Made by a program: the position numbers and the translations under genes
Virus record (IMG/VR): IMGVR_UViG_3300042890_001471
Location: 1-37,777 of that record
Length of the DNA stretch: 37,777 nt
From: a virus
Reading direction: 5' to 3' (one strand)
Notes under the pieces: generated by a model
Seen by the model: the letters and a program-made list of their open reading frames with translations, nothing else
Database searches by the model: none
Told to the model about the DNA's origin: nothing
In this document: positions 21,975 to 37,777 of the stretch, piece by piece
Numbering within the stretch: position 1 is the first letter of the stretch
Layout: every line of letters starts with the position of its first letter

Positions 21975-24206
21975 ATGCCAAAACGATATGCTGGCGGCAT
22001 TATTACCGCCACCTTTAAGCCACTAGACCCCCATGGTGATCTAACCACCCTCTTTATCGTTGGTGCAGAGCTCGACGGTGCTATGGGATTAAACGAGGGT
22101 TTTACTGTTTATCGATCAAGCCCGGTCCAAATTGGTGCTAGTACAGATTGGTATAGAGGTTATGCCGGTCCACTATCAATCCGAGCAGGTGCTATTAAAC
22201 AAAATGGTACTATGTGGGTGTGGGGTAATAGTGAAAATGGGCAACTTGGCCTTAACAACGTTGTTCAAAAATCAAGCCCTACACAGGTTGGAGCTTTGAC
22301 TACTTGGTCTCATATGGTTGTAAGGAAAAATACCAGTCTAGCCATAAAAACCGATGGGTCACTATGGACTTGGGGCGCCAGTAACCATGGCCAACTCGGA
22401 TCTAATACTCTTACATACAGATCAAGCCCGGTTCAGGTTGGTAATACCCCTGCAGCAGCCACCTCATGGTCAGAAGTTGCTGAGGGTATGGGTTATCATA
22501 CAGCGATTATTGGAACTGATAGTAGTTTATGGACTTTTGGATACAATGACTACGGACAGTTAGGTCATACTAATACTGTAAGTCGCTCAAGCCCTGTACA
22601 AGTTGGTACAGATACCAATTGGTCTGCAGTATCTACTGGTGGAAGTTTTACTTTAGCTATTAAATCAGGAGCATTATGGGGTTGGGGGGATGGAACTATC
22701 CCTGATAATAGTTATTCGAGTAGGTCTAGCCCAATACAAATTGGTTCTTTAACTAACTGGTCTAAAATTGCTGCTGGTCCGGCTTTTGGTGCAGCCGTTA
22801 AGACGGATGGTTCGTTGTGGACCTGGGGTACTAATTACATGGGTACATTAGGACTAAACTTGGGGTACGCTGCAGATAAATCTAGTCCTACTCAAGTTGG
22901 GGGACTGTACACATGGGCATCAGTCGCGGCGGGCCGCAAGCAAACTTTCGCCGTTAAGACAGACGGAACCTTGTGGGCTTTTGGATACAACAACTACGGT
23001 CAATTAGGTAATAACTCAATTGCAAATACCTCTAGCCCAGTTCAGATTGGTTCAGATACTAATTGGTCTAAAGTCAATGCAGGTTATTTTACTACTTTTG
23101 CAATCAAGACAAATGGAACGATGTGGAGTTGGGGCCGAAATGACGACGGTCAGTTAGGTCAAAATAATCTAACAAATATATCTAGTCCAGTTCAAATTGG
23201 TTCTTTATCCACCTGGTCAAATATTGCCGGCAATTATTCGACTGTAGCTACCAAAAATGATGGTACGCTTTGGAGTTGGAGCAGCAATGATCAGGGTAAC
23301 TTAGGTCTCGGTGATACAGTGCCTAGATCTAGCCCAGTACAAATTGGTTCAGATACCGATTGGTCAAAACTTGGTAGTAATCTTAAAACAAACGCAGCTA
23401 TCAATACAGCTGGTGAGCTCTACATTTTTGGAGATAATGAATACGGGCAGTTAGGTATTAATTCTGTGGCTGATGCGTCTAGCCCTACCCAAGTTGGTGC
23501 TCAGATTTATGGATGGATTGATGCTGATGTTGGAGGGGATCATATAGGTGCTATTAGAGCCGATGGTACCTTATGGACATGGGGACGAGCTCAAGCCGGG
23601 CAGACTGGTCAAAATACTGGTGCACCTACTCCTATTCAAAGATCTAGCCCAGTACAAGTTGGTACAGATACCAATTGGTTAAAAATTAAAAATCAAAGAA
23701 ATGGTATGATGGCCATTAAAACTGATGGTACCCTCTGGGCTTGGGGATACCAGGATCAGGGTCAACTTGGTGACAATAGTACGATACCTAGATCATCACC
23801 TGTACAAATCGGGGCATTAACTGATTGGTCTCTTATTTCTTCTGGTGATTATATGCAGCATGCTATTAGAACCAATGGTACCCTATATGGTTGGGGAAGA
23901 AATAACTCCAACGCGACATCTATTGGCGATAATACCAGAGTAGACAGATCCAGTCCAGTTCAAATTGGTTCAGATACTTGGTCTACGGTTGCAACCGGGA
24001 TGCACATAGCTTCCGCAATTAAGACAAATGGTACTCTCTGGGCTTGGGGTGCAGCTGCCACATCAGGTGCTACAGGACAAAATGATAGAATAGATCGATC
24101 CAGCCCGGTCCAAATTGGTACTAATACTAACTGGATTTCAACGGCTGTTGGTGGTAGTACTGAGGGTACCCAATTTATATTAGCTACAGCTAACACACCA
24201 TTCTAA
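21975..24206 (+). CDS. RCC1-repeat protein with 14 repeats (double propeller)
   Basis: A 743-residue protein that is almost all RCC1 repeats of about 50 residues. I count 14 occurrences of the signature 'SSP(V/T/I)Q(I/V)G...W', alternating with 'KTDGTLWxWG' strands and GQLG turns. Fourteen repeats suggest two seven-bladed propellers in tandem. The first repeat is preceded by about 40 residues that lack the canonical LWSWG strand (LTTLFIVGAELDGAMGLNEG). There is no signal peptide. RCC1-fold proteins bind other proteins or ligands; in this tail-fibre setting a receptor-binding or particle-decorating role is inferred. DNA around the repeats is similar enough to permit recombination between blades and between the RCC1 genes. 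Confidence 0.8.
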   Translation: MPKRYAGGIITATFKPLDPHGDLTTLFIVGAELDGAMGLNEGFTVYRSSPVQIGASTDWYRGYAGPLSIRAGAIKQNGTMWVWGNSENGQLGLNNVVQKSSPTQVGALTTWSHMVVRKNTSLAIKTDGSLWTWGASNHGQLGSNTLTYRSSPVQVGNTPAAATSWSEVAEGMGYHTAIIGTDSSLWTFGYNDYGQLGHTNTVSRSSPVQVGTDTNWSAVSTGGSFTLAIKSGALWGWGDGTIPDNSYSSRSSPIQIGSLTNWSKIAAGPAFGAAVKTDGSLWTWGTNYMGTLGLNLGYAADKSSPTQVGGLYTWASVAAGRKQTFAVKTDGTLWAFGYNNYGQLGNNSIANTSSPVQIGSDTNWSKVNAGYFTTFAIKTNGTMWSWGRNDDGQLGQNNLTNISSPVQIGSLSTWSNIAGNYSTVATKNDGTLWSWSSNDQGNLGLGDTVPRSSPVQIGSDTDWSKLGSNLKTNAAINTAGELYIFGDNEYGQLGINSVADASSPTQVGAQIYGWIDADVGGDHIGAIRADGTLWTWGRAQAGQTGQNTGAPTPIQRSSPVQVGTDTNWLKIKNQRNGMMAIKTDGTLWAWGYQDQGQLGDNSTIPRSSPVQIGALTDWSLISSGDYMQHAIRTNGTLYGWGRNNSNATSIGDNTRVDRSSPVQIGSDTWSTVATGMHIASAIKTNGTLWAWGAAATSGATGQNDRIDRSSPVQIGTNTNWISTAVGGSTEGTQFILATANTPF

Positions 24207-24243: not shown

Positions 24244-25428
24244 ATGCCATTAGGTAAGCAATATGCGGGAATGTGGACCCTATCCCAACAACTACAGGCG
24301 GTAAGCGGTAGAACCTGGACTGGGATCCCTGCAGTACCAAGTATGTGGGCTTGGGGAAGAGGTCAAGATGGGCAACTTGGTATTAACGCAGTAGGATTTA
24401 GATCCAGCCCTGTACAAGTAGATTCTGGCATTTCTTGGCCTAGGATTGCTGCAGTTGAGTTTGCTGGCGGCATTAAAGGTGATGGTACCCTTTGGATGTG
24501 GGGTGATGGTGTTTCCGGTCATATGGGGAATAATAGTATAGCACCCAGGTCAAGCCCGACCCAGGTTGGAACCGATACAGATTGGGCAGCTATTAACGTT
24601 GGTGCCTCTTTTATAGGTGCTGTTAAAACCAACGGAACAGCGTGGGTATGGGGTCAAAATAACGCTGGATACTTAGGTCTTAATAATACTATTGGAGCCG
24701 GTCGATCTAGCCCGACACAGCTCGGAGCACTAACTAATTGGGTTAAAATACAGTTTTTCTCAAATAGCGCGGTCGCTTTAAAAACCGATGGTACTCTTTG
24801 GTCATGGGGTCACAATCCTAATGGTCAATTGGGGACTAATAATACTGTTTATAGATCCAGCCCTGTTCAAATAGGTTCAGATACTGACTGGTCAAATATT
24901 GCTGGTTCCTTTTCATCCCCTATAGCTCAAAAAACTAATGGTGCGATTTATTCATGGGGTTCCAATGGCGGGGGTAATTTAGGTCTTAATACATCTGATG
25001 GAGCTCATAAGTCAAGCCCGACTCAGATTGGATCCGCTACAGATTGGATTTTAGCTGAAAACGCTCTAAGTTCAGGTAAATCTAATTTACTTCGTAAAAC
25101 TAATGGTACACTTTGGGGGTTTGGATATAACAACTATGGTATGCTTGGTGCTATCAGTGTTGTTCAAATTTCAAGTCCTGTACAAATTGGAGCATTAACA
25201 ACATGGTCAAGCGTGGCTGTAACTAGTAATACCGGTCTTGCAGTTAAAACGGATGGTACTTTGTGGGCATCAGGAAACGGTGCAGACTATGGCCAATTGG
25301 GTAATAATCTGAGTGGAGCAACCAACTATCGATCAAGTCCGGTTCAAATTGGAACAGGTACTCAATGGACCGATGTTTATGCCGGTTTTCAAACCGTATA
25401 CGCTATTCAAGAAATACCTGGTACATAA
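24244..25428 (+). CDS. RCC1-repeat seven-bladed propeller protein, 394 aa
   Basis: Preceded by a TCGGAGTC ribosome binding region. After about 35 residues (LGKQYAGMWTLSQQLQAVSG) there are seven RCC1 repeats marked by seven SSPxQ...W signatures (SWPRI, TDWAAI, TNWVKI, TDWSNI, TDWILA, TTWSSV, TQWTDV) and ending in QTVYAIQE. One closed propeller is expected. The N-terminal lead resembles that of the 424-aa RCC1 protein at 27702 (GIWTISEAAAKKQQN), so both may attach by the same short segment. Last gene before the enzyme island. Confidence 0.8.
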   Translation: MPLGKQYAGMWTLSQQLQAVSGRTWTGIPAVPSMWAWGRGQDGQLGINAVGFRSSPVQVDSGISWPRIAAVEFAGGIKGDGTLWMWGDGVSGHMGNNSIAPRSSPTQVGTDTDWAAINVGASFIGAVKTNGTAWVWGQNNAGYLGLNNTIGAGRSSPTQLGALTNWVKIQFFSNSAVALKTDGTLWSWGHNPNGQLGTNNTVYRSSPVQIGSDTDWSNIAGSFSSPIAQKTNGAIYSWGSNGGGNLGLNTSDGAHKSSPTQIGSATDWILAENALSSGKSNLLRKTNGTLWGFGYNNYGMLGAISVVQISSPVQIGALTTWSSVAVTSNTGLAVKTDGTLWASGNGADYGQLGNNLSGATNYRSSPVQIGTGTQWTDVYAGFQTVYAIQEIPGT

Positions 25429-25484: not shown

Positions 25485-27254
25485 ATGAAAAATATTTACT
25501 TCCTTGCCGGGCTTCCCCGTTCTGGTTCCACCCTTCTTGCAGCCATCCTTAATCAACACCCCTCCGTCCATGCCACAGCCACATCAGGTTTACTAGATGT
25601 GCTGGTTGGTACTTTGAAGGCGTGGAAAGAAAGTGCTACGGTTCAATCGGTCTTTGATGAAAAAGAAAATCAAGATGAGTTACAGCGTATCTTAAGAAAT
25701 ATTTGTCAAACAAAATACGAAAAAATTAATAAGCCTATTATTATTGATAAAGCCAGGGGTTGGTCTTCTGATATTAATATACCAACCATGACAAATGTGT
25801 TGGGGTACAGACCAAAGATAATTGCTACGGTTCGTAACATTCCAGATTGTGCGGCGTCATTTGTAAGAATTGCTAAACCAAAAGACAAGTATGAATTTTT
25901 AAGATCTGATCAATTTATTGCTCACATTAAAGAATCCTATCAAACGCTTCAAACAGGCTTTGTATATGCTCCAGATTCTATTTTATTTGTTGACTATGAC
26001 GACCTTATGCAGGATCCTGGTAAGCAACTAGACCGTATTCATGAATTTCTAGACTTACCCGATCATCAGTATGATTTTAATAATCTGGATGGTACTAATT
26101 TAAGAGAAAAAGATGAAGAGATTTGGGATGTTAAAGGTCTTCACGACGTTAAACCTAAATTAGGGTACCAGCACAAAGAAGACCCTAAAGACGTTTTAGG
26201 TTATATGTACAATAACTTTGTTCAGCCTAGATTTTGGCTGAATGAGAGAGTAGCACCTGGACCTATCCATAAACTAGATCTTCAGTTGGCAGCCGGATTG
26301 GTGGGTAATTTTGAAGAAGGTTTAAGATTAGCTAATGAACTTGAAGTAGAAGAACCGTGGAACAATCGTGCAGCCTTTAATCGGGGATGGTATAGGTTAC
26401 GCGAAGATAAGTTACTTGAAGGTGAACAGTTATTATACCGTGGTCGTATTGAATCAGTATTTGGTAATCCTAAACCCAGTACTCCTACCCCAGAATGGGA
26501 TGGGGTATCAAAAGGTACCGTGATGCTGTGTCTTGAAGGGGGATTAGGAGATCAAATCCACGGTGCAAGATATGCCGAATACATAATGGAAAAAGGATGT
26601 GATGTAATTATTGCATGCTCGGGCCCAATAGCTACTTTACTTAGAAAAATTAAAGGTGTGAAGGCCGTAATACAGCATGAAGCAGTTTTCGGGGTAGTAC
26701 ATGATTACTGGACTCCATCTATGTCAACTGTAGTACCTTTAAAACTAGAATACAAAGATATTAAAGGTGCAGCTTATATAAATAAACCAGATGTGGAACC
26801 TCATTATGGAATGAGAATTGGTATCAGGTGGCAAGGTAGTACTGTTTTTGAACATGAGCAGCATAGACTTTTTCCACCAGAGCTAATGTTCAATGCATTG
26901 AAGGGAACTAATGCAGAGTTTATTTCTTTACAAAGAGATGATGGCGCAGAATTTTGTCCTAGTTGGGTCAAAACAGTTCCACTAAATACATGGGAAGATA
27001 CAAGAAATGCAATTGCTTCTTGTGATTTAGTGATTAGTTCGTGTACATCGGTTGCGCATTTATCTGCTGCAATGGGGGTACAGACTTGGATTGCCGTGCC
27101 TATTTTGCCTTACTATTTGTGGGCTAAAGAGGGTGATACAAGTCCTTGGTATGATAGTGTGACTTTGTTTAGGCAGGAAGCATTTGGAGATTGGACTGGT
27201 CCTTTCGAAAAGATTAATTTAAAACTTGCAGAGATGCAAAGAAAACAAGCATAG
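25485..27254 (+). CDS. Sulfotransferase fused to a GT9-like glycosyltransferase domain
   Basis: A 589-residue fusion. Residues 1-253 are a PAPS-dependent sulfotransferase: FLAGLPRSGSTLLAAIL gives the 5'-phosphosulfate loop (PRSGST, 11-16), and IIATVRNIPDCAASF (113-126) corresponds to the 3'-phosphate-binding Arg...Ser region. Residues about 265-340 are a helical TPR-like linker ending in PTPEWDG. Residues 345-589 match the C-terminal domain of TPR-linked GT9/heptosyltransferase-like proteins (EGGLGDQIHGARYAEY, RIGIRWQGSTVFEHEQHR, LVISSCTSVAHLSAAMG, SPWYDSVTLFRQ, GDWTGP). It would be a cytoplasmic enzyme that transfers a sugar and sulfates the acceptor or a nearby glycan. The substrate is unknown. 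There is no clear Shine-Dalgarno; a sigma70-type promoter precedes it. A second, shorter paralogue of the first domain lies at 32309. Confidence 0.85.
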   Translation: MKNIYFLAGLPRSGSTLLAAILNQHPSVHATATSGLLDVLVGTLKAWKESATVQSVFDEKENQDELQRILRNICQTKYEKINKPIIIDKARGWSSDINIPTMTNVLGYRPKIIATVRNIPDCAASFVRIAKPKDKYEFLRSDQFIAHIKESYQTLQTGFVYAPDSILFVDYDDLMQDPGKQLDRIHEFLDLPDHQYDFNNLDGTNLREKDEEIWDVKGLHDVKPKLGYQHKEDPKDVLGYMYNNFVQPRFWLNERVAPGPIHKLDLQLAAGLVGNFEEGLRLANELEVEEPWNNRAAFNRGWYRLREDKLLEGEQLLYRGRIESVFGNPKPSTPTPEWDGVSKGTVMLCLEGGLGDQIHGARYAEYIMEKGCDVIIACSGPIATLLRKIKGVKAVIQHEAVFGVVHDYWTPSMSTVVPLKLEYKDIKGAAYINKPDVEPHYGMRIGIRWQGSTVFEHEQHRLFPPELMFNALKGTNAEFISLQRDDGAEFCPSWVKTVPLNTWEDTRNAIASCDLVISSCTSVAHLSAAMGVQTWIAVPILPYYLWAKEGDTSPWYDSVTLFRQEAFGDWTGPFEKINLKLAEMQRKQA

Positions 27255-27262
27255 GAGATAAA

Positions 27263-27694
27263 ATGAGTACTATTAAAACAGGTTATTGGGTTCGAGCACA
27301 AAACGGTGTTGTTACAGATTGCTGGGATTATAAGCCCAGTGATGATAAGATGGCATCAGAGCCAGGTTGGAGAGAAGCGGTAGAGGTTATTCCTGATACA
27401 GTTCCTAACAGAGAATATGTCAGCACCCATACATTTGATCTGAGCAAGACACCTGCAGAAATCGTCTGGGCTAAAGGAACGTATTCGGTTGAAGATCGCC
27501 GCGGAAGTTTGAAGAGTCAAGCTAAAGGTGTTTTTAATCAAGCCGTTCAAGAACAAGCTAGATTAGAAACGAACGATAATCCAGATCAAGCATTAGATTT
27601 AGAAGCGATTACTACAGCAAGAGCAACCCTTACAGCCAGATTAGCAGCTCTTGATGCAGCTGTTACTCATGAAGATATCGACGCGTTAATGTAA
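27263..27694 (+). CDS. Unknown protein, 143 aa, possible tail-fibre assembly type
   Basis: Preceded by TAGGAGATAAA, 8 bp after the fusion enzyme. The N-terminus (GYWVRAQNGVVTDCWDYKP) and the middle (EIVWAKGTYSVEDRRGSLKSQAKGVF) give way to a helical, Gln/Ala-rich C-terminus (ALDLEAITTARATLTARLAALDAA). The layout of a small beta N-terminal domain plus a C-terminal helix resembles phage tail-fibre assembly or virion-associated small proteins, but I cannot assign a family. Its place between the sulfotransferase fusion and an RCC1 gene suggests a link to fibres rather than to the sugar enzymes. Confidence 0.6.
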   Translation: MSTIKTGYWVRAQNGVVTDCWDYKPSDDKMASEPGWREAVEVIPDTVPNREYVSTHTFDLSKTPAEIVWAKGTYSVEDRRGSLKSQAKGVFNQAVQEQARLETNDNPDQALDLEAITTARATLTARLAALDAAVTHEDIDALM

Positions 27695-27701
27695 GAAGAA
27701 T

Positions 27702-28976
27702 ATGTCCGATTTTCCAGGTAAACTAATAACTAAAACCCCTATTACCACCGTAGGTCCTACGGATGGTGAAGGGGGCTCGGCGTCTGGGATATGGACTATA
27801 TCTGAGGCGGCTGCTAAAAAACAACAGAACCTTTGGCCAGCAAGAACCTTAAGTAGATTTCTTTATGCTTGGGGTGTGGCTGATGTGAGGGGGATAAGCG
27901 ATGAAGGTACACCTCGTTCAAGTCCAGTTCAAGTTGGTACAGAAGGAACATGGCAAAAGATTGCAATGGGGTGGAAAAGTGTAGCAGCTATAAAAAGTGA
28001 CGGTACTTTGTGGAGATGGGGTCTAAATACCTCTGGTGAATTAGGTATTGATTCAAGAGTTGATAAATCCAGTCCAGTTCAAGTAGGTGCACTGACTAAC
28101 TGGGCTAACATAGCTTCTTCTGGTTGCTCTGTAGGAAAAGATGCTTTTGCTGCTGTAAAGACGGATGGAACACTCTGGGCAATGGGTGCAGGTTCTATGG
28201 TGCCTGATAATACCGGGGTAAGTAGGTCTAGCCCAGTACAGATTGGTTCGGGTACTAACTGGTCAAATGCATTTGGAAGTCATGGTTATGGAAATCCCAT
28301 GGGGATGTGGGCAATCAAGACAGATGGTACACTATGGGGATGGGGTCGTCAAAATAACGGTAGTATAGGTAATGGTTATGTCAATGTCGGTTATAACGCA
28401 GCGCCTTTATCTAGTCCAGTTCAAATTGGGTCAGATACAAACTGGTTAAAGGTTTGTGGGGGCTATTACAAGGGTATTGCTTTAAAAACCAATGGCCAGA
28501 TCTGGGGTTGGGGTACTGGTGGTAACGGGCAAAATGAAACACAGTCAGGCATTAACGGTAATACCCCTGCACAGTTAGGGGCGCTATCTACATGGGTGGA
28601 TTTAGGTGTGGGTTCAACTCATGCTCATGCTATTAATACTGCAGGTGAATTGTATGGTTGGGGTAGAAATGCTGATAGATATGGTTCAGGAGCCGGTCAA
28701 TTAGGTGATAACACTACTACTAATCGAACTGCACCTGTAAAAATCGGTACTGATACAAACTGGTCAAGAGTATTTACAGGTGGTTATCATACTAGTTCAT
28801 TATTTAAAAGAACTGATAATACATTATGGTTTTCCGGTGTTGGCATTGGCGCTAGTAGTTCGCCGCAAGTAAAAGTTTCAAGCCCGGTTCAAGTAAATAG
28901 TACATCTGATTGGGATGTAGCTGGATGTAGTGGGCATGGAGATAATCCAGGTGTAGTAGCTACTCGAAAAGTTTAA
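27702..28976 (+). CDS. RCC1-repeat seven-bladed propeller protein, 424 aa
   Basis: It starts 7 bp after the preceding stop. The first 50 residues (KLITKTPITTVGPTDGEGGS, then GIWTISEAAAKKQQ) are followed by seven RCC1 repeats: TWQKI, TNWANI, TNWSNA, TNWLKV, STWVDL, TNWSRV and SDWDVA. Repeats 5 and 6 have degenerate SSP signatures (NTPAQ, RTAPV). It is inside the enzyme island, surrounded by glycosyltransferase and sulfotransferase genes, and it is the only structural-type protein there besides the small unknown gene. That makes it the nearest candidate substrate of those enzymes (inference). Confidence 0.8.
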   Translation: MSDFPGKLITKTPITTVGPTDGEGGSASGIWTISEAAAKKQQNLWPARTLSRFLYAWGVADVRGISDEGTPRSSPVQVGTEGTWQKIAMGWKSVAAIKSDGTLWRWGLNTSGELGIDSRVDKSSPVQVGALTNWANIASSGCSVGKDAFAAVKTDGTLWAMGAGSMVPDNTGVSRSSPVQIGSGTNWSNAFGSHGYGNPMGMWAIKTDGTLWGWGRQNNGSIGNGYVNVGYNAAPLSSPVQIGSDTNWLKVCGGYYKGIALKTNGQIWGWGTGGNGQNETQSGINGNTPAQLGALSTWVDLGVGSTHAHAINTAGELYGWGRNADRYGSGAGQLGDNTTTNRTAPVKIGTDTNWSRVFTGGYHTSSLFKRTDNTLWFSGVGIGASSSPQVKVSSPVQVNSTSDWDVAGCSGHGDNPGVVATRKV

Positions 28977-28992
28977 ATTTAAATACTATATT

Positions 28993-29706
28993 ATGAAATC
29001 ATTGTTTTTTTCGTACAACACAAGAGTTGATAAAGCTTATATTATCAGGGTCAAGGGTAACAAGAACTCAGAAGACCAGGCCTTGAGGTGTGCAGCTACT
29101 TGTAATCAGGTAAAGATGCCATTTCAATTCTGGGATGCCTATAATGGTATATCTGATGAAATTGTTACCCCTACTCATCATAATGCAGTTATGAATATGA
29201 TTAAGGTAACTGATCATTATTTAACCAGAGGTGAGGTAGCATGCGCCCTGTCTCATATTAGTCTCTGGGCTAAATGTGTTGAGCAAGATCAACCATTGGT
29301 TATTCTTGAACATGATGCCTTAATGCTTGCACCATATGTACAACATGCGGTGTTTAACTCTATAGCATATCTTGGTTCTAACGAACAAGTCAAACAAGGT
29401 TGGGGTGTTTATCCCACACCTCCTCATGCCTCTGAAGGCCCCAACTACCACTTCATCTGTCGAGCACATGCATACGGTATAGACCCTGCTGTAGCAAAGA
29501 ATATGCTTGCCCATGTTATTAAGTACGGCATATGTGCACCTTTAGATATTATTCTTAGAGCAGACATATTTCCTATTCATCAAATGGGCGTATTTGCGTA
29601 TGATATAAAAGAGCGCGTGCCTGATACTGGTGAACTTAATACAACTATTTTAGGACGGCCGATAGAAGGTCGGAAAACTGATAGAAATGACAGCTTGACG
29701 GTTTAA
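28993..29706 (+). CDS. GT25-family glycosyltransferase
   Basis: A 237-residue protein. DKAYIIRVKGNKNSEDQALR opens the domain, and LTRGEVACALSHISLWAKCV (78-96) is the GT25 hallmark (GE-AC-SH-W). VILEHDALM (103-111) occupies the place of the usual EDD metal-binding motif, here Glu106-His107-Asp108. The family transfers galactose or related sugars to lipooligosaccharide or protein acceptors in the cytoplasm. The length is typical. The His in the EDD position is unusual and may alter metal binding. It opens a run of sugar genes (GT25, GT2, Glf) with 8-bp or negative spacing. No late promoter is visible before it. Confidence 0.8.
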   Translation: MKSLFFSYNTRVDKAYIIRVKGNKNSEDQALRCAATCNQVKMPFQFWDAYNGISDEIVTPTHHNAVMNMIKVTDHYLTRGEVACALSHISLWAKCVEQDQPLVILEHDALMLAPYVQHAVFNSIAYLGSNEQVKQGWGVYPTPPHASEGPNYHFICRAHAYGIDPAVAKNMLAHVIKYGICAPLDIILRADIFPIHQMGVFAYDIKERVPDTGELNTTILGRPIEGRKTDRNDSLTV

Positions 29707-29714
29707 ATTTTTAT

Positions 29715-30548
29715 ATGCTGCATATCGTCTTACGAACTTGTGATAGACACTCACTGGTATCTACTAGAATTGTTAATAAAAAAGAATGTATATTAAGATG
29801 TTTAAATTCTATTTTAACAAATTTAGAATCTATTGATGATAAATCTCTACATATTATAGATGATAACTCATCTGACGATTTTAAGAGTAAACTTAACTCT
29901 ATCGTTGAACATCAACCGTTCGTAACTGTTAATTATCTGCCTGAACGAGATCAGACAGGGCTATCAGCTAAAAAGAAATCTAGATACTCTGTACAAGTTG
30001 CGTATGAATATATCTATAATTTACCAGATGATGATTTAGTTTATGTAGTAGAAGATGATTACCTACATTTTCCTAATGCTATACGGGAGATGGTAGATAC
30101 ATGGAACTACTTTACAAAATTTATACAAACTAACATTGGTATTTTTCCCCAAGACTTTAATCAGCTACACCTACACCCATCCTTTCCTCATAATGAAACA
30201 TATTTTCAGTCAAGTTTTGTAGTACCCTCTTATCAAAGATATTATAAAACAACGTGGTTTACACAAGAATCTTTTATGATTCAGTCTAAACTATTTAAGC
30301 AATATAAAACTGAGTTTGATAGTTTATTAAAAATTGGAGAGGATCCATCTTGCTGGGAAGGTAATACAATATCATCTGTCTGGAATAAACCTGATGTAAA
30401 GATGTTTATGCCTCTTGGCTCTCTGGTTGTACATATGTCAGATAAAGCAGATATACCTTTCTTTATTAGTAAGGAACAAGTAATTAATTTATGGAACGAA
30501 AATCAAACCTCTTGGTCGTCGGAACAGGATTCTCAGGTTCAGTTATAG
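29715..30548 (+). CDS. GT2-like (GT-A fold) glycosyltransferase
   Basis: A 277-residue protein. LHIVLRTCDRHSL opens the fold. HIIDDNSSDDF (46-56) is the nucleotide-binding DDxS-type motif, and VYVVEDDYLHFP (109-120) gives the metal-binding DxD-type site. WFTQESFMI and GEDPSCWEGNTISSVW later in the chain may bind the acceptor. It transfers a nucleotide-activated sugar, possibly the UDP-galactofuranose made by the enzyme encoded next. Its last 58 bp overlap the start of the mutase gene in another frame, which points to tight co-expression. The substrate is not known. Confidence 0.75.
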   Translation: MLHIVLRTCDRHSLVSTRIVNKKECILRCLNSILTNLESIDDKSLHIIDDNSSDDFKSKLNSIVEHQPFVTVNYLPERDQTGLSAKKKSRYSVQVAYEYIYNLPDDDLVYVVEDDYLHFPNAIREMVDTWNYFTKFIQTNIGIFPQDFNQLHLHPSFPHNETYFQSSFVVPSYQRYYKTTWFTQESFMIQSKLFKQYKTEFDSLLKIGEDPSCWEGNTISSVWNKPDVKMFMPLGSLVVHMSDKADIPFFISKEQVINLWNENQTSWSSEQDSQVQL

Positions 30549-31483
30549 CTCGTGAATTAGCTGACAACGGATTCAATGTCACTATTATTGATAAGAGATC
30601 GCATATAGGCGGTAATTGTTTTGATGAAATGGTAAATGGAGTGAGAGTTCATAAGTATGGACCCCATCTCTTCCACACCAACAATACCAAAGTAGTTGAT
30701 TGGTTATCTAGATTTACAGAGTGGGTTGAGTATAAGCACAAGGTTAAAGCTTATTATAACGGTAAATTTTTAACTCTGCCTCCCAATCAACATACCCAGA
30801 CCGTTCTTGGCGATAAGTTATTCGATGTCGTATATGCACCTTACACATTAAAAATGTGGGGTACTTTAGATATAGATAGCAAAGTCTTAGATAGATTAAA
30901 GATACGTAATGATGATAATGAGTTTTATTTTCCAAATGACTCATTTCAATACTTACCTAAAGATGGGTATACCAAAGTTTTCGAGAATATACTTAATCAT
31001 TCAAATATTAAAGTCTTATTAAATACTGACTATAATAAAGATTTAGAATCTCAATACGATAGAGTTTTTAATTCAATGGCTATAGATGAGTATTATGACT
31101 ATTGTTACGGTGAATTACCTTATCGGTCTATTAAGTTTCATCATAGGTCAAGTAACGACTTTACAATGCCTACCCCGGTAGTTAACTTTACCGATAACAA
31201 CATCTATACAAGAATAACCAAATGGGAGTTGTTTCCTAATCACGGTTCAGGTGAGCATTATACACTAGAAGAACCGTGTGATTACAAAGAAAACAATTAC
31301 GAAAGATACTACCCTGTTAAAGATGTTGATAGTATCAATAGAGTAGTGTATAATAAGTATAAGTCACTAGACAATAATAAAGTTACGTTTATTGGACGGT
31401 GTGGTTTGTATACATATCTTGATATGGACATGGCTATTGCAAGTTCTTTATCAATTGCAAATCAATTTTTTAACTCTAACTGA
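30491..31483 (+). CDS. glf: UDP-galactopyranose mutase
   Basis: A 330-residue flavoenzyme that converts UDP-galactopyranose to UDP-galactofuranose. The FAD-binding GTGFSGSVIARELAD (11-25) is followed by the acidic strand end and RSHIGGN (36-42). HKYGPHLFHT (54-63), the characteristic flavin-contact segment, is intact. Later motifs also match the family: PNDSFQYLPKDGYTKVFENI, YRSIKFHHR, VVNFTDNNIYTRITKWE, YYPVKDVDS and FIGRCGLYTYLDMDMAI. It is slightly shorter than the usual 365-390 residues. The AAGGAA box is about 14 bp from the start and lies inside the upstream GT2 gene. Galactofuranose is a cell-surface sugar in bacteria, so this gene ties the island to glycan synthesis. Confidence 0.95.
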   Translation: MERKSNLLVVGTGFSGSVIARELADNGFNVTIIDKRSHIGGNCFDEMVNGVRVHKYGPHLFHTNNTKVVDWLSRFTEWVEYKHKVKAYYNGKFLTLPPNQHTQTVLGDKLFDVVYAPYTLKMWGTLDIDSKVLDRLKIRNDDNEFYFPNDSFQYLPKDGYTKVFENILNHSNIKVLLNTDYNKDLESQYDRVFNSMAIDEYYDYCYGELPYRSIKFHHRSSNDFTMPTPVVNFTDNNIYTRITKWELFPNHGSGEHYTLEEPCDYKENNYERYYPVKDVDSINRVVYNKYKSLDNNKVTFIGRCGLYTYLDMDMAIASSLSIANQFFNSN

Positions 31484-31492
31484 GGGTATATT

Positions 31493-32281
31493 ATGAAGCG
31501 AATTTTAATCATGGGTCTTCCTGGTGCTGGTAAGACATATCTTGCTCAACACATTCTTGAACATCTCCAAAACGATCGTAAAACAGTCATGTGGCTTAAC
31601 GCCGATGATGTTCGTAAGAAGTACAATGACTGGGACTTTAGTAAAGAAGGTCGTATCAGGCAGAGTCTTCGAATGAGAGAGCTTGCCGACAGCTACGATA
31701 CTGATTTCGTTATTTGTGACTTTGTAGCTCCCCTCCCAGAGATGCGTCATAACTTTAAAGCCGATTGGACGGTCTGGGTCGATACTATTGAGAAGGGTCG
31801 ATTTGAAGATACTAATAAAGCCTTCACACCTCCTGAGTTTTATGACTTTAGAATCACCGAACAACAAGGGGAAAAGTGGGGTGAGTTTATTGCCGCCCAC
31901 ATTCTAGATGAAAGACGTAGACCAACGTTTAACTGGCAGAAAGAAACCGTTCAGATGCTTGGAAGATGGCAGCCATGGCATGAAGGTCATAGAGCGTTGT
32001 TTGAGCGTGCATTAGCTAAGACCGGTCAAGTGGTTATTCAGATTAGAGACTGTCAGGGATGGCAGGGTTCTAACCCCTTTGCTATTGAACAGGTTAAGAA
32101 CTATATTCGTAGAGATTTAGATCCTATGTTCCAAGGTCAATACGAAATTCAGGTAGTACCTAACATTGTTAATATTACCTACGGTAGAGATGTAGGGTAT
32201 AAGATCGAACAGGAAGTGTTCGATGATGCTATTCATTCTGTATCTGCTACTAAGATTAGAAAGAAAATGGGTCTTGAGTAA
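31493..32281 (+). CDS. APS-kinase-like kinase fused to an HxGH nucleotidyltransferase
   Basis: A 262-residue bifunctional protein with GAGGGT as ribosome binding site. Residues 1-145 are a P-loop kinase resembling adenylylsulfate kinase: GLPGAGKT (8-15), WLNADDVRKKY (34-44, place of LDGDNVR), DFSKEGRIRQSLRMRELAD, VICDFVAPLPEMR (73-85) and VWVDTIEKGRFEDT. Residues 150-262 are an adenylyl/cytidylyltransferase-fold domain: GRWQPWHEGH (157-166), NITYGRDVGY (227-236) and SVSATKIRKKM (249-259). If the kinase makes PAPS from APS, it would feed the two sulfotransferases flanking it. The transferase half is much shorter than ATP sulfurylase and looks closer to NadM/NMNAT or cytidylyltransferases, so making APS is only a possibility. 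Both halves have intact motifs. Confidence 0.8.
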   Translation: MKRILIMGLPGAGKTYLAQHILEHLQNDRKTVMWLNADDVRKKYNDWDFSKEGRIRQSLRMRELADSYDTDFVICDFVAPLPEMRHNFKADWTVWVDTIEKGRFEDTNKAFTPPEFYDFRITEQQGEKWGEFIAAHILDERRRPTFNWQKETVQMLGRWQPWHEGHRALFERALAKTGQVVIQIRDCQGWQGSNPFAIEQVKNYIRRDLDPMFQGQYEIQVVPNIVNITYGRDVGYKIEQEVFDDAIHSVSATKIRKKMGLE

Positions 32282-32308
32282 GTACCATATGATGTTGTAT
32301 AAAGCATT

Positions 32309-33067
32309 ATGAAAAAAACTTTGCATTTTTTAAGTGGAATTCCTCGATCAGGTTCAACCGTTCTAGCAGCTATTCTAAACCAGAACCCTACAATGCATGT
32401 TTCAACGACTTCCGGGCTCGTCTTTGCACTTGATGGATTAGCAACTACATGGCATTCAACGGGTCTTCTCGACAAGAATGATCCCTCGCGAAATAAACTA
32501 GCTCAAACTATGAGAGGTGCAATTGATGCATTCTATGAACATACAGATAGACCTATTATTATAGATAAGTCTAGAGGGTGGCCGATTGTAGCAATTATTG
32601 AAGCCATGGTTCAGGTATTAAATCGTCAGCCAAAGATTATCGCTACCGTTCGTTCGATACCAGATTGCGCTGCATCTTTTGTACGTTTAGCCAAGCCTAA
32701 GGATTTAGACGATTTTATGAGTACTAGTCCATATATTGAACATCTCGAAGCAGCCTATAATGCACTACAAGACGGATACAAATTTGCTCCAGAAAACTTT
32801 TTGTTCGTTGAATATGAAAATTTATTAGCTGAACCTAAAATTCAATTAGATAGAGTTCATAAATTCTTAAATCTCCCAGAATTTAAATATGATTTTAATA
32901 ATATTGATGGTTCAAGTGTAGCCGAAGATGATGAGACCCTCCATGGTAGCTCCGGTATGCATGATGTAAAACCTGTTTTAGCTCCTCAGCATAAGCAAGA
33001 TCCTAAAGAACTTTTAAAGCAGTATTATTCAGAATTTCTTCAACCAGAATTTTGGCTTAAATCTTAA
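32309..33067 (+). CDS. Stand-alone sulfotransferase
   Basis: A 252-residue PAPS-dependent sulfotransferase, paralogous to the first domain of the fusion at 25485 along its whole length: FLSGIPRSGSTVLAAILNQ (PRSGST, 12-17), RPIIIDKSRGW, IIATVRSIPDCAASFVRLAK, QLDRVHKFLNLPEFKYDFNN, and the end QPEFWLKS, which matches the point where the fusion's sulfotransferase domain stops. It lacks the glycosyltransferase part. A weak TTGAGT-N18-TATAAA lies immediately upstream but would leave no leader. It is the last gene before the terminator and the gp13 promoter, and the neighbour of the APS-kinase-like fusion. Confidence 0.85.
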   Translation: MKKTLHFLSGIPRSGSTVLAAILNQNPTMHVSTTSGLVFALDGLATTWHSTGLLDKNDPSRNKLAQTMRGAIDAFYEHTDRPIIIDKSRGWPIVAIIEAMVQVLNRQPKIIATVRSIPDCAASFVRLAKPKDLDDFMSTSPYIEHLEAAYNALQDGYKFAPENFLFVEYENLLAEPKIQLDRVHKFLNLPEFKYDFNNIDGSSVAEDDETLHGSSGMHDVKPVLAPQHKQDPKELLKQYYSEFLQPEFWLKS

Positions 33068-33095
33068 AGTAGCTTTTATTTTAGCAGATAATAAC

Positions 33096-33115
33096 AAAGG
33101 ACCTTAGGGTCCTTT
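33096..33115 (+). terminator. Terminator hairpin (copy 2 of a terminator-promoter cassette)
   Basis: The arms AAAGGACC (33096-33103) and GGTCCTTT (33108-33115) with a TTAG loop form an 8-bp stem. The following tract (CCTTA) is poorer in T than in the copy at 9808. The stem differs from that copy by a compensated G-C to A-T pair. It separates the enzyme island from the gp13-gp17 operon. Confidence 0.75.
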
Positions 33116-33118
33116 CCT

Positions 33119-33126
33119 TATAAATA
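33119..33126 (+). promoter_or_regulatory. T4-type late promoter TATAAATA before gp13
   Basis: A perfect consensus 25 bp before the gp13 ATG, exactly 23 bp from the start of the hairpin, as at 9831. A second near match TATAAATT (33132-33139) is too close to the TTAGGAAAG ribosome binding region to be useful. No other late promoter is visible until after gp17, so it probably drives gp13-gp17. Confidence 0.85.
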
Positions 33127-33151
33127 TACCATATAAATTAGGAAAGATACA

Positions 33152-34111
33152 ATGTCTTCACCTTCATCCAGACAAAACCTTATAGATTATTGCCTTCGAT
33201 CACTTGGCCACCCGGTTCTCGAAATTAACGTTGACGACGATCAATTAGAAGACCGTGTTGACGAGGCTATACAGTTTTACAGAGACTTTCATTATGATGC
33301 TGTTGAAGCTGTATATCTTAAAGAACAAATAACTGCATCCACCTTACAAATTGTTGGCGTTAATGCTGGCAGTTTTTCTATAGGCGAAAAGATCACCGGT
33401 GCATCTTCTGGTGCTACAACATTTGTTCATGCCGCTTTTGCAGCCAACAAAGTATATACTAAGAATACTGCAGAAACGTTTACTGTTGGGGAAACGATAA
33501 CTGGTGCTGTTTCTGGTACGACAGCAGTTGTGTCCTCTATGACACTTGGTAACTTTGATAACAAATACGTTACCTTAAATGACTCCGTACTAAGTGTTGT
33601 AAGAACATTGCCGTTATCGAGTAGATCTAACAGTATCAGCTTCTTTGATGCTAAGTATCAGTTAATGCTTAACAACATTCAGTCTTTAACAAATACCGAT
33701 ATTCAGTATTTTACAATGTTAAAGATGCATATTAATTTGATTAACGACCTGATGACAGGACAAAAGCCTGTTAGGTTTAATCGTCATATGAATAGATTAC
33801 ATATTGACTTAACCTGGGGTGATGGAGGTGATCTGGCTATCGGTGATTACATTATCATTGAAGCATATCGTATGCTTGACCCTGATACGTTTACCGATGT
33901 ATATAACGATGGTTATCTAAAGAGATACACAACTGCTTTAATTAAGCGTCAATGGGGTGTTAATCTTAAGAAGTTTGAAGGCGTTCAATTACCAGGCGGT
34001 GTAACGTTGAATGGTCAAAAGATCTTTGATGAAGCGATGGAAGAGATTAAAGAGTTAAAGGATGAAGTTAGATCTACCTACGAACTCCCTGTAGACTTCT
34101 TTACAGGTTGA
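33152..34111 (+). CDS. 13: Neck protein gp13 (head completion)
   Basis: A 319-residue homologue of T4 gp13 (about 309 residues). RQNLIDYCLRSLGHPVLEIN (7-26), DDQLEDRVDEAIQFYRDFHYDAVE and the C-terminal region (MLDPDTFTDVYNDGYLKRYT, ALIKRQWGVNLKKFEG, GVTLNGQKIFDEAMEEI) are characteristic. A short insertion with two IGEKITGASSG / VGETITGAVSG repeats lies at about 77-128 and is a beta decoration on the core. gp13 and gp14 form the neck that closes the filled head and joins the tail. First gene of the conserved neck-terminase operon. Confidence 0.92.
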   Translation: MSSPSSRQNLIDYCLRSLGHPVLEINVDDDQLEDRVDEAIQFYRDFHYDAVEAVYLKEQITASTLQIVGVNAGSFSIGEKITGASSGATTFVHAAFAANKVYTKNTAETFTVGETITGAVSGTTAVVSSMTLGNFDNKYVTLNDSVLSVVRTLPLSSRSNSISFFDAKYQLMLNNIQSLTNTDIQYFTMLKMHINLINDLMTGQKPVRFNRHMNRLHIDLTWGDGGDLAIGDYIIIEAYRMLDPDTFTDVYNDGYLKRYTTALIKRQWGVNLKKFEGVQLPGGVTLNGQKIFDEAMEEIKELKDEVRSTYELPVDFFTG

Positions 34112-34113
34112 GA

Positions 34114-34194
34114 ATGTATTTAGCTTATCTCATCAGCCCACCTATGGATTATACCATCAAGGCAACAACTAATCCACGTGGATATACCGAATAA
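34114..34194 (+). CDS. Probable 26-aa microprotein between gp13 and gp14
   Basis: A short open frame fills the gp13-gp14 gap exactly. Its ATG starts 2 bp after the gp13 stop, with AGGTTGAG just upstream as a possible ribosome binding site, and its stop overlaps the gp14 ATG (TAATG). The product begins MYLAYLISPPMDYTIKAT and ends in RGYTE. This coupling arrangement is the same as for other genes here, which supports translation. No function is recognised; it could be a leader that couples gp14 translation. Confidence 0.55.
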   Translation: MYLAYLISPPMDYTIKATTNPRGYTE

Positions 34195-34937
34195 TGGCGA
34201 CCAACTTTTATTTCCAATCTGGTATACCTGGAGGCAGATCTTCAGAGCAATTGCTCATGGAAGATATTATAATAGAGTGCTTAAAAATATACGGGTTTGA
34301 TACCTATTATATTCCTAGAGTTACAGTCAATGAAGATGACATTCTGGGAGAAGATGTACTTAATAAGTACTCGTCAGCTTATCCTCTAGAGATGTACATG
34401 CAGAACGTTACTGGGTTTGAAGGAGACGGAGATCTGTTGACTAAATTTGGGGTTGAGTTTAGAGATACTGCAACCTTTATTGTATCCAGAAGAAGATGGG
34501 ATGAAGTAATTGCAAGATCTGGAGATGCAGTTTTAACTACCAGACCAGCTGAAGGGGATATTGTTTACTTCCCATTAACAAAAGCATTTTTTGAAATTAA
34601 ACGAGTAGAATCTACAGACCCATTCTTTCAGGTAGGTAAGTTATACGTCTATAAACTCCAATGTGAGTTAATGCAGTACTCTTCTGAGGTCTTTGATACG
34701 GGGGTATCAGAGATTGATAGTATTGCTTCTGGTGATTCATTGGATGTTAATGCCTTTAATCTATTACTTCAGAGTGGAGATAGAGCGTTACTGGAAGAAT
34801 ATAATCCTGCAGGCATTATTCTTCAATCCTATAACTTAGGTACTATATTACCTAACGTAGATAATGAAGATTTTAGGGGTGATATTTCTGTGCTAGACTT
34901 CTCCGAAAGAAACCCATTTGGAGAAATAAATGTTTGA
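34194..34937 (+). CDS. 14: Neck protein gp14 (head completion)
   Basis: A 247-residue homologue of T4 gp14 (256 residues), recognised by NFYFQSGIPGGRSSEQLLME (3-22), IYGFDTYYIPR, EDDILGEDVLNKY, VEFRDTATFIVSRRRW, GDIVYFPLTKAFFEIKRVE and FQVGKLYVYKLQCELMQYSS. It works with gp13 in the neck. It overlaps gp15 by 8 bp. Confidence 0.93.
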   Translation: MATNFYFQSGIPGGRSSEQLLMEDIIIECLKIYGFDTYYIPRVTVNEDDILGEDVLNKYSSAYPLEMYMQNVTGFEGDGDLLTKFGVEFRDTATFIVSRRRWDEVIARSGDAVLTTRPAEGDIVYFPLTKAFFEIKRVESTDPFFQVGKLYVYKLQCELMQYSSEVFDTGVSEIDSIASGDSLDVNAFNLLLQSGDRALLEEYNPAGIILQSYNLGTILPNVDNEDFRGDISVLDFSERNPFGEINV

Positions 34938-35682
34938 TAAATTCTATCACGGAACAATACGAAAGTCAATAGTTGCTTTTGGTAATATATTTAATAATAT
35001 CCATATTGATAGATTAGATTCAGGTGGTAATATTACCCAGACCCTTCGGGTTCCTTTGGCATATTCTCCAAAGGCAAAGTTTTTAGCTAGAATTGCCGCC
35101 CAACCCAATTCATTCGAACAAAGCTTTCAGACCTTTTTACCAAGACTTGGTTTTGAGATGATAAGTTTGACTTATGATCCTAATAGAAGAGTCAGCCTGG
35201 TTCAGCAGAACAGAGCATTAAATGGTACATCTACAACTTCATTAAACGCCCAGTACGCACCTACCCCTTATAACATTGCTATGACTTTGTATGTGTATAC
35301 AAAGAACCAGGATGATGGGTTACAGATTATTGAACAGATATTACCTTACTTTAATCCGGACTATAACTTGACTCTTAATGCAATTCCTGCAATGGGCATT
35401 AAGAACGACTTACCTGTTATTCTGGACAACATTACATATGAAGATGAGTATGAAGGAGACTTTACTCAAAGAAGAGCAATCATCTGGACGCTCAACTTCA
35501 CAATGAAACTTAACTTTTACGGTCCAGTCAACAGACAGGGCATCATCAGAACTACAAACGTTAATACATTCTCAGACCCCGCACTATCTAATAAACAATC
35601 CTCATACACCGCAACAATTACTCCCGGTACCGCTGTTCCTGGTGATACTATTGGTATTACAGATACGTTTGAGGACTTCTAA
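34930..35682 (+). CDS. 15: Tail sheath stabiliser / tail completion protein gp15
   Basis: A 250-residue homologue of T4 gp15 (272 residues): FDKFYHGTIRKSIVAFGNIF (2-21), NNIHIDR, LRVPLAYSPKAKFLARI, LPRLGFEMISLTYDPNRR, YAPTPYNIAMTLYVYTKNQDD (shortened here in thought to its ends, YAPTPYN and YTKNQDD) and VILDNITYEDEYEGDF. It caps the tail tube and sheath and contacts the neck. Coupled to gp16 by TAATG. Confidence 0.93.
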   Translation: MFDKFYHGTIRKSIVAFGNIFNNIHIDRLDSGGNITQTLRVPLAYSPKAKFLARIAAQPNSFEQSFQTFLPRLGFEMISLTYDPNRRVSLVQQNRALNGTSTTSLNAQYAPTPYNIAMTLYVYTKNQDDGLQIIEQILPYFNPDYNLTLNAIPAMGIKNDLPVILDNITYEDEYEGDFTQRRAIIWTLNFTMKLNFYGPVNRQGIIRTTNVNTFSDPALSNKQSSYTATITPGTAVPGDTIGITDTFEDF

Positions 35683-36083
35683 TGAAATCACTTAATAGAA
35701 TTAACGATGTCTTCAATGTTGAGACAGACGTTGATTTGCCTATCCCAACGAGTATGCCTGTGGCATATAATCCTTCTGAGTTAGATCAGGAGGATGACTT
35801 TCAATTGGCTCGTAACACCCTTCGTAGTCTAATTAATAAGAACGAAGACGTAATGACTGAGTTGGTTCATATTGCAAAGAACTCTGAGAACCCAAGAGCA
35901 TTTGAAGTTGCCGGGCAATTGATATCCGCTCAAACTGCTATTACAAAAGAGTTAATTGGTCTTCATAAAACTAAAAAAGATATTGATAAGGCAAGCGGTA
36001 AGATGGAGAATATTAAGCAGCAAAATAATATAGTATTTGCTGGTTCAACCTCTGATCTTATGAAGATGATTAATGGAAAATAA
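35682..36083 (+). CDS. 16: Small terminase subunit gp16
   Basis: A 133-residue protein, shorter than T4 gp16 (164 residues). It has a short disordered N-terminus (YNPSELDQEDDFQLARNTL) and a largely helical body: SLINKNEDVMTELVHIAKNS, NPRAFEVAGQLISAQTAITK, ELIGLHKTKKDID. The pattern fits the central oligomerisation helices of T4-type small terminases. gp16 regulates genome packaging by gp17. The gene overlaps gp17 by 11 bp, as expected for the pair. Confidence 0.88.
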   Translation: MKSLNRINDVFNVETDVDLPIPTSMPVAYNPSELDQEDDFQLARNTLRSLINKNEDVMTELVHIAKNSENPRAFEVAGQLISAQTAITKELIGLHKTKKDIDKASGKMENIKQQNNIVFAGSTSDLMKMINGK

Positions 36084-37725: not shown

Positions 37726-37743
37726 TAGTCAAAGTTCAGTATT

Positions 37744-37751
37744 TATAAATA
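37744..37751 (+). promoter_or_regulatory. T4-type late promoter TATAAATA after gp17
   Basis: A perfect consensus 19 bp before an ATG at 37771, whose frame runs off the window after seven bases. By T4 gene order this would be gp18 (tail sheath), but too little is present to confirm it, and no clear Shine-Dalgarno is visible. Confidence 0.75.
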
Positions 37752-37777
37752 TACTGGTATAAAATTTGTTATGACAG

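Follow-up and report, generated by a model that had tools for sequence, protein, structure and literature searches.

How does a virus that carries its own sulfotransferases obtain the activated sulfate, 3'-phosphoadenosine 5'-phosphosulfate (PAPS), on which such enzymes depend? The question is raised by IMG/VR virus record IMGVR_UViG_3300042890_001471, whose positions 1-37,777 form the stretch of DNA analysed here (37.8 kb, hereafter the window). Positions 25485-33067 hold an island of open reading frames (ORFs) whose coordinates agree with those of a preliminary description made from the sequence alone, and whose named genes all lie on the + strand. The island encodes two sulfotransferases (ST1 and ST2), several sugar-related enzymes, and a protein of 262 residues, here called KIN, in which an N-terminal half resembling adenosine 5'-phosphosulfate (APS) kinases is joined to a C-terminal nucleotidyltransferase (NTase) half. 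We propose, with fair confidence, that the island contains a virus-borne sulfation module, in which KIN is probably a compact bifunctional PAPS synthetase supplying the neighbouring sulfotransferases. The proposal builds on direct observations of gene identities, an APS-kinase fold, conserved PAPS-binding positions in the sulfotransferases, the linkage of sulfotransferases with KIN in phages and bacteria, and the absence of canonical ATP sulfurylases from most NTase-carrying bacteria.

In the proposed mechanism, the NTase half, with its HxGH motif, would transfer AMP from ATP onto sulfate to form APS and pyrophosphate (the ATP-sulfurylase step), the kinase half would use ATP to phosphorylate the 3'-OH of APS, yielding PAPS, and ST1 and ST2 would convert PAPS and an acceptor into a sulfated acceptor. 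The acceptor would probably be a component of the phage surface or fibre, or a sugar made by the adjacent glycosyltransferases. A fibre glycan, the fibre protein or the host surface may be the target, since the PDB profile search with ST1 relatives matched both small-molecule (CurM-type) and tyrosylprotein sulfotransferases. A reason for a phage to carry its own PAPS supply may be that assimilatory sulfate activation is missing from some abundant hosts in aquatic habitats, as documented for SAR11 (PMC5069961).

The kinase half scores 40.3 bits against the APS_kinase profile PF01583 (Pfam cut-off 21.1) and 29.2 against the NCBIfam apsK equivalog, far below the latter's cut-off of 138.7; APS-kinase profile matches stop near residue 90. 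In an AlphaFold2 model of KIN built from a 34-sequence alignment (predicted local distance difference test, pLDDT, 86), it has a clear APS-kinase fold, matching APS kinases at Z about 17-18 (VIA Z 18.4) over about 142 residues with a root-mean-square deviation (rmsd) of about 2.2; the next-closest family, gluconate kinase, reaches Z 14.7. A P-loop is present, and D38, R41, F49, R54, P80 and R85 are invariant among 25 homologues. The first four of these align with the APS-binding stretch of PAPSS1, and we take them to be the APS-binding Asp, Arg, Phe and Arg; the Asn position is Gln57 in KIN.

The NTase half, which the preliminary description had left unassigned, carries the motifs GRWQPWHxGH, YGRxVGY and SATxIR. 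Its profile match to nicotinamide mononucleotide (NMN) adenylyltransferase (NMNAT; 3.6e-9) covers the ATP-binding half only, and a model of the NTase alone (pLDDT 87.6) is nearest in fold to phosphopantetheine (PPAT) and NMN adenylyltransferases (Z 10-11). Foldseek and VIA returned NMNAT, PPAT and their relatives, with no ATP sulfurylase among the matches listed. Scores against the NMN adenylyltransferase families fall far below the NCBIfam cut-offs (27.5 vs 127 bits for NF002243 and 24.3 vs 181.2 for TIGR01527). NMNAT and PPAT are ATP-dependent adenylyltransferases whose acceptors are bulky phosphates. The NTase has only about 120 residues and is about 40 residues shorter than these enzymes on the acceptor side, which would suit a small acceptor, for instance sulfate. 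Two of its motifs, GRxVGY and SATxIR, resemble ATP-sulfurylase motifs, a likeness that is suggestive only (SAR86-type members have GRG, not GRD), and no sequence link between the NTase and ATP sulfurylase was found. The evidence as a whole suggests that the HxGH domain supplies APS.

Both sulfotransferases of the window belong by sequence to the PAPS-dependent family PF13469 (Sulfotransfer_3), with 71.2 and 56.2 bits against a Pfam cut-off of 27. In an alignment of ST1 with 14 relatives, the PRSGST loop (the 5'-phosphosulfate-binding loop, 5'-PSB) and R117...S125 (the 3'-phosphate-binding positions, 3'-PB) are invariant, as are PRSGST and R115/S123 in the alignment of ST2; the sulfotransferase domain of ST1 spans residues ~1-255. 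The 80 closest viral KIN loci were compared with 68 loci of the UDP-galactopyranose mutase gene (glf) and, as background, with 80 neck-gene loci. Sulfotransferases occur in 50 of the 80 KIN loci and in none of the neck-gene loci (Fisher 2e-20; the contigs are not fully independent, and the background loci are shorter on average, 10 vs 14 kb). A distance of at most 200 nt separates a sulfotransferase from KIN at 34 of 90 loci in viruses and at 18 of 82 in bacterial genomes, and in many phages the sulfotransferase stop overlaps the KIN start. The 11 sulfotransferases taken into an alignment, which came from the window and from positions adjacent or close to KIN in viruses, are all recognised as Sulfotransfer_3. 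Two isolated phages, Suzuki (Stenotrophomonas) and Clavibacter phage 33, carry a KIN homologue of about 40% identity; the idea that KIN is independent of sulfotransferases in isolated phages was given up when both proved to have a Sulfotransfer_4 protein, above cut-off, two genes upstream of it.

The linkage extends to bacteria, where KIN homologues occur in SAR86, SAR116, Woeseiaceae, Bacteroidota and Rhizobium. Most of the SAR86 genomes recovered encode kinase and NTase separately, in two overlapping genes of about 136 and 130 codons (as at L240:7998-8405 and 8401-8790), and in one SAR86 group the split genes stand directly behind a Sulfotransfer_3 gene. Sulfotransferases of four Pfam families lie beside KIN: Sulfotransfer_3 in SAR86 and phages, Sulfotransfer_1 in SAR116 (L233), Sulfotransfer_2 (L231, L282), and Sulfotransfer_4 in the two isolated phages. 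Since four families are linked to the same enzyme, what they have in common would be the donor PAPS and not an acceptor. Rhizobium sp. BK376, whose genome also has CysD and CysN, encodes a single protein of 555 residues (L236:7137-8801) that consists of Sulfotransfer_2, APS_kinase and NTase domains. A sulfotransferase together with KIN is the core of the module.

Searches for the ATP sulfurylases CysD, CysN and Sat across the whole genomes of 45 NTase-carrying bacteria indicated that the NTase mostly occurs where no such enzyme was detected. CysD was detected in two genomes, CysN in the same two and Sat in two others, which leaves 41 with none of the three. Sulfotransfer_3 is present in 39 genomes; three of the six without it have a different sulfotransferase above cut-off, which brings the count to 42/45 for any family. 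Nothing of the short kinase was detected in six of the NTase genomes (G005, G008, G011, G017, G023 and G037); all of these except G023 combine a canonical full-length APS kinase (E<=1e-65) with a sulfotransferase, again without CysD, CysN or Sat. These five genomes span three lineages (Woeseiaceae, Bacteroidota and SAR116), and the two halves of KIN therefore behave as separable parts, with a canonical APS kinase able to take the place of the short one. Among the 97 genomes of a single-order panel, CysD or Sat occurs in none of the 8 genomes with the NTase and in 75 of the 89 others (Fisher p = 2e-6). One small genome of this panel (G140) has a canonical APS kinase with no CysD, Sat or NTase found; it either is incomplete or has another APS source. 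Somewhat less firmly than the role of KIN as a whole, we favour the view that the ~120-residue NTase represents a third type of ATP sulfurylase, so far unrecognised and derived from the NMNAT/PPAT branch, and that with a shortened APS kinase it would form the smallest PAPS synthetase, serving sulfation and not sulfate assimilation in many phages and in streamlined marine bacteria such as SAR86.

Several results weigh against this interpretation. The lid segment that usually follows the ISP motif of APS kinases is absent from KIN, which has DTIxxGRxEDTN instead; KIN has no Pfam match to the ATP sulfurylase Sat (PF01747), and no confident alignment with the NTase could be made for the residues that bind sulfate in known ATP sulfurylases. 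No sulfotransferase lies within reach of KIN in two relatives of the window (L005 and L006) or in the isolated phage DLP6. Canonical ATP sulfurylases are present in four of the 45 NTase genomes, and many NTase genomes may be incomplete. The NTase genomes are of a small, streamlined type: in the order panel all 8 are small, and Sat occurs in only one of six genomes of up to 1.8 Mb without the NTase; because small genomes without the NTase mostly lack Sat too, genome streamlining alone could explain the loss of ATP sulfurylase.

Other explanations concern either the source and nature of the donor or the composition of the pathway. It is unlikely, in our assessment, that the kinase half is an APS kinase fed with APS by a host ATP sulfurylase or by AprBA acting on sulfite, with the NTase performing an unrelated adenylyl transfer, for example to a sugar or cofactor phosphate. 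Such a division of labour would suit the NTase fold and ATP-side motifs, which are nearest to NMNAT and PPAT, the four NTase genomes with canonical ATP sulfurylases, and the AprBA of some SAR11 strains, which is able to form APS (PMC5069961); against it speak the five genomes in which the NTase, without its short kinase, is accompanied by a canonical APS kinase and a sulfotransferase and by none of CysD, CysN and Sat, the fusion of the NTase with a sulfotransferase in Rhizobium, and an acceptor side far shorter than in NMNAT and PPAT. Lower still is the probability we give to a sulfur-free donor resembling PAPS, for which the NTase would activate another small anion, X, as NDP-X, the kinase would add a 3'-phosphate and enzymes of sulfotransferase fold would transfer X. 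A precedent is the O-methyl phosphoramidate pathway of Campylobacter, where a relative of APS kinase acts on CDP-phosphoramidate, but sulfotransferases of four Pfam families are linked to KIN, the PAPS-type R...S pair is retained among relatives of ST1, which also have PAPS sulfotransferases as PDB matches, and the NTase has an SxTxxR-type motif and its nearest folds among ATP-dependent adenylyltransferases. The least probable account, to which we give very little credence, is that unrelated metabolic genes sit passively in a variable region and share no pathway: the region between fibre and neck genes is indeed variable, and ST2 is a cassette that may be present or absent, but adjacency of sulfotransferase and KIN recurs in distant phages and bacteria, and the two are also fused.

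The preliminary description had proposed a single pathway for making, activating and sulfating a galactofuranose-type glycan, which might decorate fibres or alter the host surface, and had suggested a survey of related genomes for co-occurrence of its genes. The sulfation part of this idea holds up, given the linkage and fusion of sulfotransferases with KIN and the APS-kinase fold; the galactofuranose part fared poorly, and we regard the complete pathway as doubtful. The gene order GT25-GT2-glf-KIN (glycosyltransferase families 25 and 2) is kept in contigs from other samples (L001-L004, L008 and L082), with the ST fusion (63-65% identity) and the small gene orfX present as well in L083-L086, but of the 80 closest KIN loci only 5 contain glf, and of the 68 glf loci 13 contain KIN (55 have no KIN within reach). 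In L005 and L006, where glf and GT25 are absent, KIN still adjoins the neck gene. The GT9-like domain named in the preliminary description found no support either: Pfam searches with ST1 and with each of 13 relatives gave no glycosyltransferase family for the C-terminal domain, and a profile search of the PDB gave no such enzyme. GT2 and glf form a conserved pair seen in many glf loci. The glf gene and the glycosyltransferases are thus an accessory sugar cassette beside the sulfation module, and ST2 is accessory too, since glf is rare at KIN loci, L005 and L006 lack glf and GT25, and L003 and L004 lack ST2. The latter two contigs are otherwise 90-95% identical to the window, and the alignment breaks directly behind the KIN stop codon. 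ST2 shares 78% identity with the sulfotransferase domains of other RCC1-type phages and only 48% with ST1, which suggests that the two were acquired separately.

The features of the island are listed below; the sulfotransferases with PRSGST loops, the fusion of an APS-kinase-like domain with an HxGH nucleotidyltransferase, the mutase, GT25 and GT2, and the placement of the island between fibre-region RCC1 genes and a gp13-like neck gene all agree with the preliminary description.

Features of the island and its right boundary in the window
Feature	Position	Strand	Support
ST1: PAPS-type sulfotransferase domain, short TPR-like linker and C-terminal domain	25485..27254	+	Sulfotransfer_3 1.9e-19 (Pfam)
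orfX, small conserved gene	27263..27694	+	present in 18/80 KIN loci
RCC1-repeat protein, third of three in region	27702..28976	+	RCC1 3.3e-19 (Pfam)
GT25-like glycosyltransferase	28993..29706	+	Glyco_transf_25 4.2e-17 (Pfam), profile 18-98 of 199
GT2-like glycosyltransferase, overlaps glf	29715..30548	+	Glycos_transf_2 6.5e-7 (Pfam)
Phage-type UDP-galactopyranose mutase (glf)	30491..31483	+	GLF 2e-43 (Pfam)
KIN kinase half, APS-kinase-like, residues 1-146	31493..31930	+	APS_kinase 4.2e-10 (Pfam)
KIN NTase half, HxGH adenylyltransferase-fold, residues 147-262	31931..32281	+	CTP_transf_like 4.9e-4 (Pfam), slightly below cut-off
ST2: stand-alone PAPS-type sulfotransferase	32309..33067	+	Sulfotransfer_3 7.8e-15 (Pfam)
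ST2 cassette	32282..33094	+	in L001/L002, not in L003/L004 (alignment break)
Neck protein, T4 gp13-like, right boundary, outside pathway	33152..34111	+	phrog_211 4.1e-40

RCC1-repeat genes flank the island on one side and the neck gene (phrog_211) on the other. Two contigs from other samples, L001 and L002, match window positions 27156-37777 and 27702-35663 at 99.96-99.98% identity, so that the arrangement is no assembly artefact. The phage mutase scores 148.9 bits against GLF (cut-off 26.3) and 259.7 against the equivalog TIGR00031, below the cut-off of 303.75; its FAD motif is present, and both Arg positions, presumably active-site residues, align with those of the PDB mutase 3hdq (match 2.5e-66). 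A gap in that alignment (query 103-106 vs 129-167) makes the phage enzyme ~36 residues shorter than its bacterial counterparts. The residues it lacks fall in the helical second domain, and the phage enzymes closest to it are likewise short (about 326-340 residues). The GT25 gene covers only the N-terminal half of its profile. The orfX product has no match in Pfam, PHROG or NCBIfam, and in relatives the gene adjoins ST-fusion genes or KIN. Three RCC1-repeat genes occupy the fibre region (21975-24206, 24244-25428 and 27702-28976), and such genes are frequent in related loci; they are likely to be a family of modular receptor-binding proteins, and the position of the third makes it a probable fibre or receptor-binding component.

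KIN has further neighbours elsewhere. Profile comparison did not show gene families A5 and A6 beside KIN to be sulfotransferases; family A7 probably is one. A regular-expression scan for sulfotransferase loops was dropped, as it mostly matched the KIN P-loop again. A conserved family just downstream of KIN in L065, L073, L074, L075 and L078 has a sulfotransferase-like LPR(T/S)GSQL loop, unconfirmed by profile. By eye only, ORFs upstream of KIN in L071, L076 and L080 resemble periplasmic tricarboxylate-transporter (TctC-like) binding proteins, and KIN lies near genes resembling FolE, QueD and a TagD-like cytidylyltransferase in L064, L065 and L072, possibly a second KIN context in 7-deazaguanine metabolism.

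Phage sulfotransferases and viral cysC genes are already known, and the KIN route to PAPS has probably not been described: the open-access literature (subscription papers and preprints were outside the scope) gave no account of KIN as a PAPS synthetase, of a third ATP-sulfurylase type or of such a phage pathway. The NTase may well be a new type of ATP sulfurylase. If so, it would be the missing first enzyme of PAPS synthesis for abundant ocean bacteria that seem unable to activate sulfate, a use other than sulfate assimilation would be suggested for viral 'cysC' genes, and the function of phage sulfotransferases would become directly testable with one small recombinant protein.

One of the closest known systems is human PAPSS1/2, which likewise has an N-terminal APS-kinase domain and a C-terminal domain of the HxxH nucleotidyltransferase superfamily, and whose conversion of ATP and sulfate to PAPS is the one proposed here. 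The KIN model aligns with the PAPS synthetase structures 1x6v and 1xjq, but KIN has 262 residues against about 620, lacks the kinase lid sequence, differs in domain arrangement (rmsd about 20 over both domains) and has a C-terminal domain that by sequence is nearest to NMNAT/PPAT and not of Sat type. Sat (PF01747), which has an HxxH adenylyltransferase core, and CysDN carry out the reaction proposed for the NTase; no sequence relation to them was found, and the NTase mostly occurs where they are absent. With archaeal NMNAT and PPAT the NTase shares the HxGH and SxTxxR motifs, the fold and the ATP-side sequence, whereas its acceptor side is shorter and unlike theirs and it is linked to sulfotransferases. 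Sulfotransferases of marine phages (in the S-SKS1, S-SRM01 and OM43 phage genomes) likewise belong to Sulfotransfer_3, and the function of phage sulfotransferases has been called unclear (PMC10580990); here, a linked donor-making enzyme is added. Finally, APS-kinase-like viral genes have been reported as 'cysC' auxiliary metabolic genes under sulfate assimilation (PMC9611531), whereas the context of the KIN family points to sulfation.

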